A stretch of DNA of 61,641 nucleotides from Candidatus Planktophila sp. GTDB lineage: Bacteria; Actinomycetota; Actinomycetes; Nanopelagicales; Nanopelagicaceae. The DNA lies in NCBI GenBank assembly GCA_009694515.1, contig SHUV01000004.1:1-61641 (forward strand), given 5' to 3'. Position 1 is the first letter of the stretch. Each line of letters begins with the position of its first letter. Positions 8,082 through 35,941 of the stretch are shown piece after piece. The notes under the pieces were generated by a model, which saw nothing but the letters and a program-made list of their open reading frames with translations, made no database searches and was not told where the DNA came from. The position numbers and the translations under genes were made by a program.

Positions 8082-8144
8082 TATTTTGCCACGCCACACA
8101 TGATCGGGCTGCCTAGTTGAGCGTGAATCGAGCGGGAGTTGCCC

Positions 8145-8167
8145 TTGTCAGAGCTCTGGACTACTTT
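8145..8167 (+). promoter_or_regulatory. PafBC/RecA-NDp-type DNA-damage promoter
   Basis: TTGTCAGAG, 8 nt, then TACTTT. This matches the mycobacterial RecA-independent damage promoter consensus tTGTCRgtg-N8-TAnnnT, now attributed to the activator PafBC, at all but one core position (A for T in GTG). It ends immediately before the LexA box. Confidence 0.65.
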
Positions 8168-8183
8168 TCGAACATCTGTTCGA
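8168..8183 (+). promoter_or_regulatory. LexA (SOS) box
   Basis: TCGAACATCTGTTCGA matches the actinobacterial/Bacillus SOS box TCGAACrnnnGTTCGA with perfect dyad arms (GAAC-N4-GTTC). It covers the expected transcription start of the adjoining promoter, so LexA bound here would block initiation of the DUF6504-dnaE2-dinB operon. Confidence 0.85.
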
Positions 8184-8215
8184 ATATCCACAAGCACTAG
8201 GGGAAGTAATAAAAG

Positions 8216-8494
8216 ATGGCAGCAGAAGTAGTAAGGCCGCACGAGGTCCTATCCGATGGTGGGCTCACACCTATCGAATTCACCTTTAAAGGTAAACGTT
8301 TTCGTATCCATGCAGTCTTATCTAGATGGTGTGAAGCAGGTGGATGGTGGAATCGCATTAGCGATGGAAAGTTTCGCCCTGATGATCAAGCACGCGCACT
8401 CTGGACGGTAGAGGCGGCGCCTATTGGGGCGCTGACAACCTTCCAACTCGAACGTGATGAGACAACAGGTCAATGGATTATTAGAGCTATCTAG
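8216..8494 (+). CDS. DUF6504 family protein, first gene of the SOS operon
   Basis: A 92-residue soluble protein. Visible landmarks are FTFKGKRFRIHAVLSRWCEAG, the aromatic stretch GGWWNRISDG, and a closing WTVEA...FQLERDETTGQW. Small proteins of this kind sit beside imuB/dnaE2 genes in many actinobacteria (DUF6504), and the GGWW element is the family's hallmark as far as I recall. The ATG at 8216 has AGGGGAAG about 9 nt upstream. It is 33 bp downstream of the LexA box and 16 bp ahead of dnaE2, so it is damage-inducible with the two polymerases. Its biochemical role is unknown. Confidence 0.75.
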   Translation: MAAEVVRPHEVLSDGGLTPIEFTFKGKRFRIHAVLSRWCEAGGWWNRISDGKFRPDDQARALWTVEAAPIGALTTFQLERDETTGQWIIRAI

Positions 8495-8510: not shown

Positions 8511-11500
8511 ATGAGTTTTATCCATCTGCGTACAGCAAGTGCCTATTCATTTAAATATGGCACTACTCAGCCACGTGATCTTGTTGCCCGGGCATCTGAA
8601 TTCGAGATGCCGGCTTTGGCACTAACAGATCGCGATGGTCTAGCTGGCGCAATTCGTTTTACGAAAGCGTGCGTAGCGCACGGCATCGCACCGATTATCG
8701 GAATCAACCTGCCGATCTATCTGGGCGATACATCGGGTGTCTTACCGCGCGTCACAATCTTGGCGCATGGCGATGGGGGATGGCGCAGTTTGGTGCGCTT
8801 GATGACCGGCATACATATGAATACCGATAGCCGAAAGCCAGTACTCACACCCGAGCTCCTTGAAAAATTTAACCAGTACACATCTCATCTGCACCTACTC
8901 CATGGCCCCGAATCACCAGTATCGCAGGCGATTGCCGCACATCGCTTTGATGCTGCCCTTACTATCTTTAACCAAACTCGCGATCTCTTTGCCGACCATG
9001 CCATTGAATGTGTTTCGCACTTGGTGGCCGGTAATGGCCCGCGCTCTACCGTGCACGCAGCGCGCAGTCTTATCTTTGCTCGCGATAACGATATTGATGC
9101 GGTCATTACCAACGCTGTGCGGATGCGTGATCGTTCTGATGGTCCGGTTGCTGATGTCTTAGATTGCGCTCGCCAGTTAGTGCCGCTACATCCACGCAAC
9201 GTCGAACGTCGCAACGCGGAAGCCTATTTAAAGAGCAGCGATGAAATGATTGCACTCGCTGCTGAAATCGCACGAGCAGCAGGGGAGCGCACACCACGTT
9301 TACTACTCAAGACAACGCGTCAGTGGGCCGAACGTGCAGTCTTATCACCGCATCGCGATATTGGGTTGGGTGCAATTCAGCTACCGGAAGCCCATGTTGT
9401 GGGCGCTGATTCACCTGCTGCCATGCGCACACTTTTGCGCACTCGCGCTGAAGCTGGAATTAATTGGCGCTATAACGATGGCGCAACGATTGCCAAAGCG
9501 TGCGCACGTCTTGATGATGAACTGGCAACAGTTGCAACGCTGGGATATGAGTCTTACTTTCTTACCGTTGCCGATATCACCGATATGGCGCGGGCTGCCG
9601 ATATTCGGGTGGCAGCACGTGGCAGCGGCGCCGGTTCATTGATCTGTCACTTACTTGGAATCTCTGGCGTTGATCCGATGCAACATGGGCTACTTATGGA
9701 ACGCTTTTGTTCACCGCTGCGCTGGGCGCTACCTGATATTGATATCGATGTTGAATCTGCAAGACGCCTTGAAATTTATGAGATGGTCTTTAAGCGTTAT
9801 GGAGCACAAGATTGGAGTAAGCCAGGTGCTCTTTCTCGTTGCGCCACGGTTGCCATGGTCGACACCTATCGCGCGCGTCATGCAATTCGCGATGCCGGAG
9901 CGGCGCTAGGCATGCCCGCTATGGAGATTGATTTATTAGCAAAGTCGATGCCGCATATTCGAGCCGGCAATATTGATGCCGCCCTCAACTCGTTACCTGA
10001 GTTAAAGAATATGAATACATCGGCGCCTTTAACTCGGGCAACGATTGCTCTCGCTGCTCGCCTTGATGGCCTGCCGCGCCATCTTGCCATGCATCCGTGC
10101 GCCATGGTCTTATCTAATGCATCTTTTCTTGACCGGGCACCGATACAACTCAACGCTGGCGGCTTTCCGATGGTCGAATTTGATAAAGATGATGTGGAAG
10201 ATATTGGCTTACTCAAGCTCGATATCTTGGGCGTGCGGATGCAATCAGCTATCGCACATGCTGTGCATGAAATTAAACGAATTGAAGATACCGAAATAGA
10301 TATCGATGCCGTGCCACTCGATGATGCCGAGACCTATAACCTGATTCAATCAACACGCACGCTCGGTATCTTTCAAGTAGAGAGCCCCGGACAACGCGAA
10401 CTTGTGGGCAAGTTAGAGCCGCGCACATTTAGTGATCTGATTATCGATATCTCACTCTTTCGGCCAGGGCCGGTCAAGAGTGACATGATCCGCCCATTTC
10501 TTGAGGCCAGACATGGCTTTACTTCGGCGCAGATCATTCATCCTGACTTACTTCCTATCTTGTCGGAAACTGAAGGTGTTGTGGTCTTTCACGAACAAGT
10601 CATTTCGATTATCTCGGTCATGACAGGTATCTCACTTGCCGCCGCTGATGAGAAACGTAGGGCGCTGGGGGATAAAGGCGGCCAACAAGAAGTTTGCGAT
10701 TGGTTCTTTCCTGCTGCAACCCAGCGCGGTTATGAGTTACAGGTAGTTACTGAAATCTGGGAAGTATTGCGCGCCTTTGCATCCTTTGGTTTCTGTAAAG
10801 CACATGCGGCTGCCTTTGCCCTGCCTACCTATCAATCAGCCTGGCTTAAGACCCATCACCCAGCTGCATTTATGGCCGGGGTTTTAACGCACGACCCCGG
10901 TATGTATCCCAAGCGACTCATGCTCGATGAAGTGCGCCAGTTGGGTGTGGGTATCGCACCCCTTGATATCAATAAATCAGCTGCCGATTATCACGTGGAG
11001 CGCACCCTCGATGGTGATGCCATCCGAATCGCTTTCGCAACCGTTGCTGGAATTTCTGCAAAAGAAATTGCATCCATTATTAGCGGGCAGCCCTATATCG
11101 ATCTCGCCGATTTCTATCGCAGATCTGGCGCCTCAACTCCAGTGATTGAAAACCTTATCCTCACCGGAGCTTTTGATTCGATTCACAGCAATCAACGCGA
11201 TCTGCTGCTGCACTTTAGCGATCTTCAGAAATCTCCCGTGGCCCACCTTCCTGGCGCACAACTCACCTTTGGTTTTGCAGCACCCACACTGGAAAGTAGC
11301 GGTCTTGCACCCATGAACTCGGCCGAGAAAGTGCGTAATGAGATAAAGCATCTAGGTATGGATGTCACCGAACATATGCTCAGCTTTTATGCGCCATTTC
11401 TTAATGCAATTGGGGCGGTGAAATCATCGGATTTACTTTCCTTGCGTTCAAAGTCCTCGGTACTTGTGGCTGGCGTGAAAGTTGCTTTGCAAACTCCGCC

Positions 11501-11747
11501 GGTGCGCTCTGGTCGCCGCGTTATCTTTCTTACCTTAGATGATGGCTATGGATGCAGTGATTCCACCTTCTTTCCTGATGCCCAAGTCGATCATGCATCT
11601 ACCTTGTATTCGACATCGCTGCTTTTGGTGCGTGGGCAAACTCGGCGCACAGGTGCACGTGGCATATCAATACGGGCAACAGCAGTGTGGGACTTAAGCC
11701 TGGCCTACGAAAAATGGCGCGCGCATAGAGATAGTGTGGCGATATGA
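8511..11747 (+). CDS. dnaE2: Error-prone DNA polymerase III alpha subunit DnaE2 (ImuC)
   Basis: A 1078-residue C-family polymerase used in translesion synthesis. Order: degenerate PHP domain (1-200), palm with PDIDIDVESA (two catalytic aspartates), fingers, tandem HhH region, OB-like C-terminus. RGSGAGSLICHLLGI and SLFRPGPVKSDM are alpha-subunit signatures. The PHP metal site is eroded: where the replicative dnaE in this window has HLHVHTEYS and MTDHG, this protein has HLRTASAYS and LTDRDG, so PHP exonuclease activity is not expected. I start at ATG 8511; an earlier frame start overlaps DUF6504. It overlaps dinB by 4 bp. Induced with the operon through the LexA/PafBC promoter. Confidence 0.88.
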   Translation: MSFIHLRTASAYSFKYGTTQPRDLVARASEFEMPALALTDRDGLAGAIRFTKACVAHGIAPIIGINLPIYLGDTSGVLPRVTILAHGDGGWRSLVRLMTGIHMNTDSRKPVLTPELLEKFNQYTSHLHLLHGPESPVSQAIAAHRFDAALTIFNQTRDLFADHAIECVSHLVAGNGPRSTVHAARSLIFARDNDIDAVITNAVRMRDRSDGPVADVLDCARQLVPLHPRNVERRNAEAYLKSSDEMIALAAEIARAAGERTPRLLLKTTRQWAERAVLSPHRDIGLGAIQLPEAHVVGADSPAAMRTLLRTRAEAGINWRYNDGATIAKACARLDDELATVATLGYESYFLTVADITDMARAADIRVAARGSGAGSLICHLLGISGVDPMQHGLLMERFCSPLRWALPDIDIDVESARRLEIYEMVFKRYGAQDWSKPGALSRCATVAMVDTYRARHAIRDAGAALGMPAMEIDLLAKSMPHIRAGNIDAALNSLPELKNMNTSAPLTRATIALAARLDGLPRHLAMHPCAMVLSNASFLDRAPIQLNAGGFPMVEFDKDDVEDIGLLKLDILGVRMQSAIAHAVHEIKRIEDTEIDIDAVPLDDAETYNLIQSTRTLGIFQVESPGQRELVGKLEPRTFSDLIIDISLFRPGPVKSDMIRPFLEARHGFTSAQIIHPDLLPILSETEGVVVFHEQVISIISVMTGISLAAADEKRRALGDKGGQQEVCDWFFPAATQRGYELQVVTEIWEVLRAFASFGFCKAHAAAFALPTYQSAWLKTHHPAAFMAGVLTHDPGMYPKRLMLDEVRQLGVGIAPLDINKSAADYHVERTLDGDAIRIAFATVAGISAKEIASIISGQPYIDLADFYRRSGASTPVIENLILTGAFDSIHSNQRDLLLHFSDLQKSPVAHLPGAQLTFGFAAPTLESSGLAPMNSAEKVRNEIKHLGMDVTEHMLSFYAPFLNAIGAVKSSDLLSLRSKSSVLVAGVKVALQTPPVRSGRRVIFLTLDDGYGCSDSTFFPDAQVDHASTLYSTSLLLVRGQTRRTGARGISIRATAVWDLSLAYEKWRAHRDSVAI

Positions 11748-12934
11748 GTGAAGAGCTGGTGCAAGCAACAATCTTGCATGTAGATATGGATGCGTTCTAT
11801 GCATCTGTGGCCGAGCTCGATAACCCGCAATATAAAGGTAAGGCTCTTGTCGTTGGCGCCGGTGTGCGCGGCGTAGTTCTTTCGGCAAACTATGAAGCGC
11901 GTAAATTTGGTATTCGCGCTGCCATGCCGGTGGGACGAGCAAAACGCATGGCGCCTCATGCCATCTTTATCGCACCAGAGCATCATCGCTATGCCGAAAT
12001 TTCAGAGCGAGTGATGACGATATTTAACTCCTTCACACCCCTTGTTGAACCCATCTCACTCGATGAGGCATTTCTTGATGTGACAGGTGCGCAGAAACTA
12101 TTTGGTGATGGACGCGAGATTGCCGCCAAGATTCGGGCGCAGGTAGAGCAGGAAGAAGGAATTACCTGTTCGGTGGGAATTGCGCAATCTAAATTTATTG
12201 CAAAGCTGGCATCGCAACACTGCAAACCCAATGGCATGCTAGAAATCAAATCAGATCGAATCCTGGAGTTCTTACATCCACTTCCCGTGCGCGCACTATG
12301 GGGAGTGGGCCCCAAGACTGCTGAGTCACTGGATCGACTCGGGCTACATACTGTTGCTGATATCGCCAATACTCCGCGGTCCACTCTCGTGCGTGCACTC
12401 GGAGATGCCACCGGCGAATCACTCTATGAACTTGCCTGGGGTCGTGATTATCGAAATGTGATTTCAGATGAGCCTGAGAAAAGTATTGGTAATGAAGAAA
12501 CATTCGCCCGAGATATTGATAGCCCGGAAGAAATTTTGGCTGAGTTCTTGCGCATGGCAGAGAAAGCAACGGCGCGCCTGCGAGAGCGCGGCTTATTTGC
12601 CAAGACAGTGACGATGAAGATTAAGTTTGCAGATTTCACAACACTCAGCCGGGCAAAGACACTTCCGATTGGAATCGATGGCACACATGAGACCTATGAA
12701 ATTGTGAAGAAGTTATATCTAGCCCTTCACAATGAAGGTGCACGGATTCGCCTGGTCGGGGTGTCACTGAGTAATTTGCTTGATGAGGCGCCGGTGCAGC
12801 TAGAACTTGGCGCGCGCGAGCGCGGGTGGCGTGATGCCGATACCGCTATCGATAAGGCAAAAGCCCGTTTTGGCGGGGGCAGCGTGCGCCCAGGGAGGCT
12901 GATAACGGGGGATTCTGGCGAGGGTGAGGCTTAA
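11744..12934 (+). CDS. dinB: DNA polymerase IV, DinB-type Y-family polymerase
   Basis: A 396-residue Y-family polymerase. Catalytic carboxylates are intact: LHVDMDAFYAS at residues 11-21 (D14) and ISLDEAFLDVT at about 105 (D/E pair). The little finger is complete, and a short QLELG near residue 355 could be the beta-clamp peptide. The tail WRDADTAIDKAKARFG is typical of actinobacterial DinB. Because the active site is intact, this is a working Pol IV rather than ImuB, the catalytically dead clamp adaptor that usually accompanies DnaE2. ATGA overlap with dnaE2 indicates translational coupling. No imuA-like gene is seen in the operon. Confidence 0.9.
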   Translation: MSEELVQATILHVDMDAFYASVAELDNPQYKGKALVVGAGVRGVVLSANYEARKFGIRAAMPVGRAKRMAPHAIFIAPEHHRYAEISERVMTIFNSFTPLVEPISLDEAFLDVTGAQKLFGDGREIAAKIRAQVEQEEGITCSVGIAQSKFIAKLASQHCKPNGMLEIKSDRILEFLHPLPVRALWGVGPKTAESLDRLGLHTVADIANTPRSTLVRALGDATGESLYELAWGRDYRNVISDEPEKSIGNEETFARDIDSPEEILAEFLRMAEKATARLRERGLFAKTVTMKIKFADFTTLSRAKTLPIGIDGTHETYEIVKKLYLALHNEGARIRLVGVSLSNLLDEAPVQLELGARERGWRDADTAIDKAKARFGGGSVRPGRLITGDSGEGEA

Positions 12935-35002: not shown

Positions 35003-35941
35003 ATGAGTAGAGAGTTAAGAACGCTGAGCGTGCCAGAAGGCGTTGAGGGCGAGCGAATTGATAGCGCCCTGACGCGAGTGCTTGGTCTCTCTCGCACGTC
35101 GGTAGTGAAGTTACTCGAAGATGGTGATATCAATTCAGGTGGACGCGCTATGCAAAAATCTGATCGAGTTACCGCAGGACAAGTCATTGAAGTTCTTCTG
35201 CCCGCACCGCTTAATCAAGACCCAATTCCACTGACTCCACTTGAGGGTCTTACCGTTGTTTATAACGATGATGACATCGTTGTTATCGATAAACCGGTTG
35301 GCTGCGCGGCCCACCCGAGCCCAGGTTGGATGGGTCCCACAGTTGTGGGCGCACTCATGGCTGCGGGCTACACAATTTCTACATCGGGCCCCGCAGAGCG
35401 GGCAGGTGTGGTTCATCGACTCGATGCCGGCACATCTGGACTCATGATTATTGCCAAGACCGATGCCGCGTATTTAAAGTTAAAAGAGATGTTTCGCGAT
35501 CATGATGTTGAAAAAACTTATCACGCACTTGTGCAAGGACATATGGATCCCTCTTCCGGAACTATCGATGCCCCGATTGATAGACATCCCAAGGAAGATC
35601 ATCGCTTTGCCGTAGTTGCAACCGGTAAAGAGAGCATCACGCACTATGAAGTCATTGAGTATTACCGCTCTGTCTCATTAGTAGAGGTGGAGTTAGAGAC
35701 TGGGCGCACACATCAAATTCGAGTTCACTTCTCGGCACTCAACCATCCACTTGTCGGTGACACTACTTATGGTGCAGATCCAGTGTTGGGCAAAAAAATG
35801 AAGATGTCTCGACCTTGGCTTCACGCTTTAGAGCTTCGCTTTAACCACCCGATTACAGGTGCGCCACTTGAGTTAGTCGCGCCATACCCACCCGACCTAC
35901 AGGCCTCTTTGGCGTTGCTATCCGAGGCAGTTCTGCCTTAG
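35003..35941 (+). CDS. rluD: RluA-family 23S rRNA pseudouridine synthase (RluD-like)
   Basis: A 312-residue enzyme: N-terminal S4 RNA-binding domain (about 14-62, RIDSALTRVLGLSRTSVVKLL) and pseudouridine synthase domain with catalytic D141 in HRLDAGTSGLM. GRTHQIRVHFSALNHPLVGD is a further family motif. RluD modifies helix 69 of 23S rRNA in E. coli; the RluA/RluC/RluD branches are hard to separate by eye, so the target positions are inferred. Conserved neighbour of lspA. Confidence 0.88.
   Translation: MSRELRTLSVPEGVEGERIDSALTRVLGLSRTSVVKLLEDGDINSGGRAMQKSDRVTAGQVIEVLLPAPLNQDPIPLTPLEGLTVVYNDDDIVVIDKPVGCAAHPSPGWMGPTVVGALMAAGYTISTSGPAERAGVVHRLDAGTSGLMIIAKTDAAYLKLKEMFRDHDVEKTYHALVQGHMDPSSGTIDAPIDRHPKEDHRFAVVATGKESITHYEVIEYYRSVSLVEVELETGRTHQIRVHFSALNHPLVGDTTYGADPVLGKKMKMSRPWLHALELRFNHPITGAPLELVAPYPPDLQASLALLSEAVLP

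Follow-up and report, generated by a model that had tools for sequence, protein, structure and literature searches.

Here, we describe a 45-bp element (8139-8183) in which a -35 hexamer, a PafBC -26 element, a -10 hexamer and a LexA operator are fused into one promoter ahead of a mutagenic polymerase operon. We consider it likely that this single promoter carries both DNA-damage inputs, with LexA acting as a veto and PafBC as an activator. This reading follows from the geometry of the -26 element, the -10 and the operator, by which LexA should block initiation and PafBC should raise it. The window, meaning the whole stretch of 61,641 nucleotides that was analysed, lies on contig C10 of a 0.92-Mb genome (74% complete), whose source is in all likelihood a Nanopelagicales actinobacterium from fresh water.

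A fused promoter ahead of DUF6504-dnaE2-dinB

The first-pass annotation had described a PafBC-type promoter directly abutting a LexA box, and on re-reading the sequence we find TTGTCAGAG-N8-TACTTT (8145-8167) in contact with a perfect LexA box (8168-8183), exactly as claimed (Table 1). The upstream part agrees with the RecA-NDp consensus in its quoted form, tTGTCRgtg-8nt-TannnT (Gamulin 2004, quoted in PMC5656591), except for base 8, which is A where the consensus has T in its lower-case part. The downstream part matches the LexA/SOS operator consensus of Actinobacteria, TCGAAC-N4-GTTCGA, at every defined base. No other SOS-like box with 2 or fewer mismatches occurs in the window, and since the shuffled window yields a mean of 2.2 such matches, it is the perfection of the match, and nothing less, that makes the box significant by itself.

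Table 1. Coordinates of the promoter elements and operon genes in the window
Feature	Position	Strand	Basis or remark
-35-like hexamer TTGCCC	8139-8144	+	sequence; 17 nt ahead of the -10
PafBC (-26 / RecA-NDp) element TTGTCAGAG	8145-8153	+	sequence
Spacer N8, CTCTGGAC	8154-8161		between the PafBC element and the -10
-10 hexamer TACTTT (TANNNT)	8162-8167	+	sequence; in contact with the SOS box
LexA operator (SOS box) TCGAACATCTGTTCGA, perfect TCGAAC-N4-GTTCGA	8168-8183	+	spans the predicted start site
Predicted transcription start	8174-8175	+	inferred, 7-8 nt past the -10
Possible Shine-Dalgarno GGGGAAG	8200-8206	+	sequence; leadered start in the window's genus
DUF6504 protein, operon gene 1	8216-8494	+	Pfam PF20114, E 2.2e-8
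DnaE2-type error-prone polymerase	8511-11747	+	likely start at ATG 8511, in an ORF open from 8454
DinB / DNA polymerase IV	11744-12934	+	IMS domains by Pfam; scores above the cut-off of NCBIfam PRK03858

Pfam and NCBIfam profiles uphold the earlier naming of the operon as DUF6504-dnaE2-dinB, in which the partner downstream of DnaE2 is DinB when compared with the imuA-imuB-dnaE2 mutasome cassette. The search for lexA and pafBC homologues that had been proposed as a check was also positive. The genome encodes LexA (identified by Pfam and TIGR00498, with two SOS boxes of its own upstream of lexA), RecA, and, as tandem WYL genes on contig C4, a PafC with the HTH_PafC domain (PF19187) and a PafB-like WYL partner. 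Because PafC is near-universal in the family (271/296 genomes), the presence or absence of PafBC was uninformative as a co-occurrence test, which was dropped.

The arrangement recurs twice in the same genome. An abutting PafBC-LexA composite lacking a -35 precedes recA (C9:12957-12995; L015, L028), and a third composite (C15:2589-2633; L029) precedes a LysM gene divergent to lexA, which we presume to be comparable with Rv2719c. In this third case the PafBC motif lies between two SOS boxes and faces the LysM gene, with the SOS box about 7-8 nt past the -10, roughly one helical turn downstream. As a separate observation, recA in most other genera keeps its SOS box but has a weak abutting PafBC element or none at all. 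Some further candidates were rejected: a perfect RecA-NDp match ahead of dnaE1 (window 35751-35773) lies inside an RluD-like coding sequence (LVGDTTYG) and is probably a coincidence, and two loose matches considered as PafBC targets (C9:39994 and C8:399) fall within coding sequence and look coincidental.

Conservation, spread and start site

Upstream regions were chosen by DnaE2 orthology and not by motif (17 genera and 48 loci, 34 of them non-redundant) and were aligned on the SOS box. Strong information was confined to the -35 peak at -29..-25 (TTGCC, more fully TTG(C/A)C), to -22..-17 (TGTCRG), to -6..-1 (TANNTT) and to the operator, which is near-invariant. TGTC stands exactly 22 nt ahead of the SOS box at 36 of the 48 loci (25/34 non-redundant), as against 0-3 loci, about one each, for any other position. 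The rest of the spacer is conserved far less than TGTC; the G two bases past it, which played no part in choosing the sites, is conserved at 77-94%.

We then define the composite pattern as TGTC-N12-TANNNT running up to the first base of a single perfect SOS box. Allowing up to 3 mismatches, it is found in 248 of 296 family/order genomes, with the reversed pattern almost absent. Lengthening the TGTC-to-TA spacer to 13 nt (with a slightly stricter SOS box) leaves 5 of 395 genomes, compared with 210 for the 12-nt spacer. As a sequence pattern, the composite is not a chance one.

Among close relatives, where co-conservation had been suggested as a check, both boxes are present in all 15 genus-mates and abut in 14; in the single exception, 12 bp are inserted between the PafBC element and the SOS box. 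Three of four g9 genomes have one additional base in this layout, and the SOS box lies 6, 8 and 9 nt past the -10 in g6, g7 and g14, respectively. Loss of the PafBC motif with retention of the LexA box, which had been named in advance as evidence against the proposal, is not seen in the genus but does occur in g5, g10 and one g8 genome, where the motif is lost or degenerate. With the -26 element degraded and the SOS box retained in these cases, the PafBC input is probably dispensable in some lineages.

Across the class, the 210 of 395 genomes with composites have the SOS box either abutting or 8-12 nt downstream. Among the 150 non-family sites listed, the gap, counted from the -10 to CGAAC, is 0-2 nt at 93 and 8-12 nt at 46; a gap of 0 is somewhat favoured by chance, since the final T of the -10 then doubles as the T of TCGAAC, a bias from which the 8-12 nt group is free. 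The genes that follow include DUF222/HNH, DUF4262, HEPN_SAV_6107 and RuvC, as well as a PHP-domain protein taken to be DnaE2, and the genera include Mycobacterium, Mycolicibacterium, Mycobacteroides, Jiangella, Actinomycetospora and Nigerium. As for TCGAACATGNGTTCGA boxes in 15 non-family genomes, the f20 sites are mostly ordinary TTGACA-type SOS promoters, and several DUF222-type sites of f4 have TGTC at -21 to -23. The abutting composite was also seen on two IMG/VR viral contigs (L319:1155 and L320:351).

Where does transcription start? The loose motif TTGTC-N12-TANNNT alone is unenriched in the window's genome (9 matches vs 25 for the reversed pattern). The stricter TGTCRGTG-N8-TANNNT is enriched in 16 family genomes (62 matches vs 14 reversed). 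In 15 of 28 distinct family PafBC-type promoters that have no SOS box, an ORF begins with ATG exactly 6 or 7 nt past the -10, so that the start site is expected 7-8 nt past the -10, at ~8174, within the window's SOS box. Such promoters look leaderless and indicate that the PafBC-type motif is functional in Nanopelagicaceae.

In twelve other genera (L042, L137-L158, L164-L167), though not in the window's own, the SOS box itself holds the DUF6504 ATG, as TCGAACA(T/A)ATGTTCGA, reading Met-Phe-Glu (ATG TTC GAA). The DUF6504 frame is open from this ATG and no Shine-Dalgarno precedes it, which argues for a leaderless mRNA with its start site inside the operator and leaves no room for another promoter downstream. 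In the window's genus the in-box ATG is replaced by CTG or the frame is broken; the window has a leadered start at ATG 8216 with GGGGAAG upstream, and some of the genus-mates likewise have an SD-like stretch ahead of their ATG. Presumably the in-box ATG was lost and a leadered start then took over.

Other PafBC-type promoters in relatives deserve mention in their own right. The motif TGTCRGTGATGNCTGGTAGAAT is conserved 24 nt ahead of a gene starting MTFKVGETVVYPHHG (L347, L352, L354, L372), which looks like CarD, and a small Cys-containing protein (MIIxCDxC...) follows leaderless PafBC-type promoters at L346, L356, L359, L360, L363 and L366. In G271, three PafBC-type promoters (C2:772752, 773884 and 778727; L373, L374) have the downstream sequence TTCAATTGCTCAAGAAGTGA in common, which is suggestive of duplication.

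Two proposed inputs on one predicted start site

Given both elements on a single -10, what might their joint logic be? As others have established, RecA-ssDNA leads to the removal of LexA. For PafBC, binding to the -26 motif goes via the HTH of PafB; the protein holds sigma domain 4 (sigma adaptation) and is activated by ssDNA (PMC11804915). From sequence, we infer PafBC and LexA binding, the start site and the logic at the dnaE2 promoter to be as follows. In the undamaged cell, LexA on the start site would block RNA polymerase. DNA damage would then generate single-stranded DNA to be sensed by two routes: RecA filaments on ssDNA would provoke LexA self-cleavage, and the WYL domains of PafBC would sense ssDNA directly, recruiting sigma-A polymerase to the -26 element. 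Any transcript would require LexA release, and its output would be raised by PafBC. The outcome would be two-key, AND-like control of DUF6504-dnaE2-dinB, its strictness set by how much activity the -35 allows in the absence of PafBC, and the fused layout as such suggests two-key control of mutagenesis. One published result counts against this model: in Mycobacterium smegmatis biofilms, dnaE2 induction is mostly RecA-dependent and little PafBC-dependent (PMC12702967), a comparison made at the level of regulation. The A at base 8 of the window's PafBC element and the lineages with a degenerate -26 element also weigh against it.

The first-pass annotation had gone further, proposing that activation by PafBC is needed in addition to release from LexA. 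The elements and the single -10 on which it built stand, and the need for PafBC is less secure in view of a conserved -35. A strict AND gate, in which a transcript would appear only with PafBC activation plus LexA removal, is plausible rather than proven, and we entertain it with some reserve. Consistent with it, both inputs share one -10 and one start site, a sigma-70 consensus scan found no promoter at the dnaE2 promoter with its weak -10, TACTTT, and the genus recA composites entirely lack a TTG at the -35 place (0/14). Against it, however, TTG stands at that place with a 16-19 nt spacer in 38/38 family dnaE2 composites (3.0 expected after shuffling), and in 14/21 composites from across the class that have their SOS box one turn downstream. 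The published consensus of PafBC-dependent promoters is without a -35, sigma domain 4 being held by PafBC (PMC11804915). The -35 of the dnaE2 promoters, kept at 17-18 nt spacing in each family composite, thus places the PafBC element inside a sigma-A promoter spacer, and through this -35 the dnaE2 promoter may have PafBC-independent activity, with PafBC perhaps serving just as a booster. It is mainly for this reason that we do not accept the strict AND gate.

Another possible reading is a fail-safe, OR-type promoter, in which PafBC-bound polymerase outruns or displaces LexA and either pathway alone induces. Mycobacterial mutasome genes are under both pathways with partial redundancy, as far as the summary of that work goes (Adefisayo 2021, summarised in PMC10421592), but we think an OR-type promoter unlikely here: the operator lies over the predicted start site, a position from which LexA should keep the polymerase from initiating, however it was recruited, and this operator is near-perfect everywhere in the family. 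Finally, that this is an ordinary SOS promoter (-35/-10/LexA box) with TTGTCAGAG in its spacer as a relic or coincidence is very improbable, since the fixed position of TGTC in a much less conserved spacer, the near disappearance of the pattern with a 13-nt spacer and the enrichment, within this family, of the stricter motif accompanied by leaderless ATGs weigh against it, even though some genera lose the -26 element yet keep the SOS box and the loose motif is unenriched in the window's genome.

Our preferred reading remains LexA as veto and PafBC as activator. A broader reading, which we offer tentatively, is of an Actinomycetes-wide 'all-in-one' element consisting of a PafBC site, a -10, a LexA operator and, in many lineages, a leaderless start codon. 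Such an element would be a true coincidence detector, in which expression of mutagenic repair genes would require agreement between two independent ssDNA readers, set by spacing classes (abutting or about one helical turn).

Comparison with known systems

Why actinobacteria keep two damage responses to the same ligand, ssDNA, is a question already raised (PMC11804915). Here, the sites of both regulators converge on a single predicted start site, in a layout conserved to the base in most of the family, making the choice between AND, OR and veto accessible by reporter; the composite is also present in culturable relatives (Mycobacterium, Mycolicibacterium and Jiangella), and the layout bears on the restraint of mutagenic polymerases. 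Dual PafBC/LexA control was known, the mycobacterial mutasome included, and genes with both motifs have been reported (PMC8223512). No description of the fused single-promoter form was found in the literature consulted, relative to which it appears new; an earlier account elsewhere is conceivable.

In the mycobacterial recA region, P1 is PafBC-dependent and P2 LexA-dependent (PMC5656591). It shares both regulators, the PafBC motif and the DNA-damage logic with the window but has one regulator per separate promoter, whereas the window has both on one -10 and start site. The contrast with mycobacteria that had been drawn earlier thus holds for recA P1/P2 but not in general, as single-promoter composites stand at mycobacterial DUF222, DUF4262 and HEPN_SAV_6107. 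The mycobacterial imuA'/imuB/dnaE2 genes are likewise an error-prone DnaE2 mutasome under SOS and PafBC, so far as the summary states (Adefisayo 2021, via PMC10421592); unlike them, the window's operon is DUF6504-dnaE2-dinB, and the likeness is one of regulation.

In Streptomyces venezuelae, SOS boxes were placed on dnaE2-dinP by LexA ChIP/SPR, as on the window's actinobacterial dnaE2 operon, but the PafBC motif is reported not to be conserved there (PMC9380542). Comparable to another site of the window's genome is the lexA-Rv2719c region of Mycobacterium tuberculosis, where a PafBC motif lies beside lexA, facing away from it and close to SOS boxes (PMC8151990); the same layout is found ahead of the LysM gene, where, unlike in the abutting form, the SOS box lies ~8 nt past the -10. 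Set beside these systems, the composite is a variant of the dual PafBC/LexA control already known, widespread and of unusual compactness.
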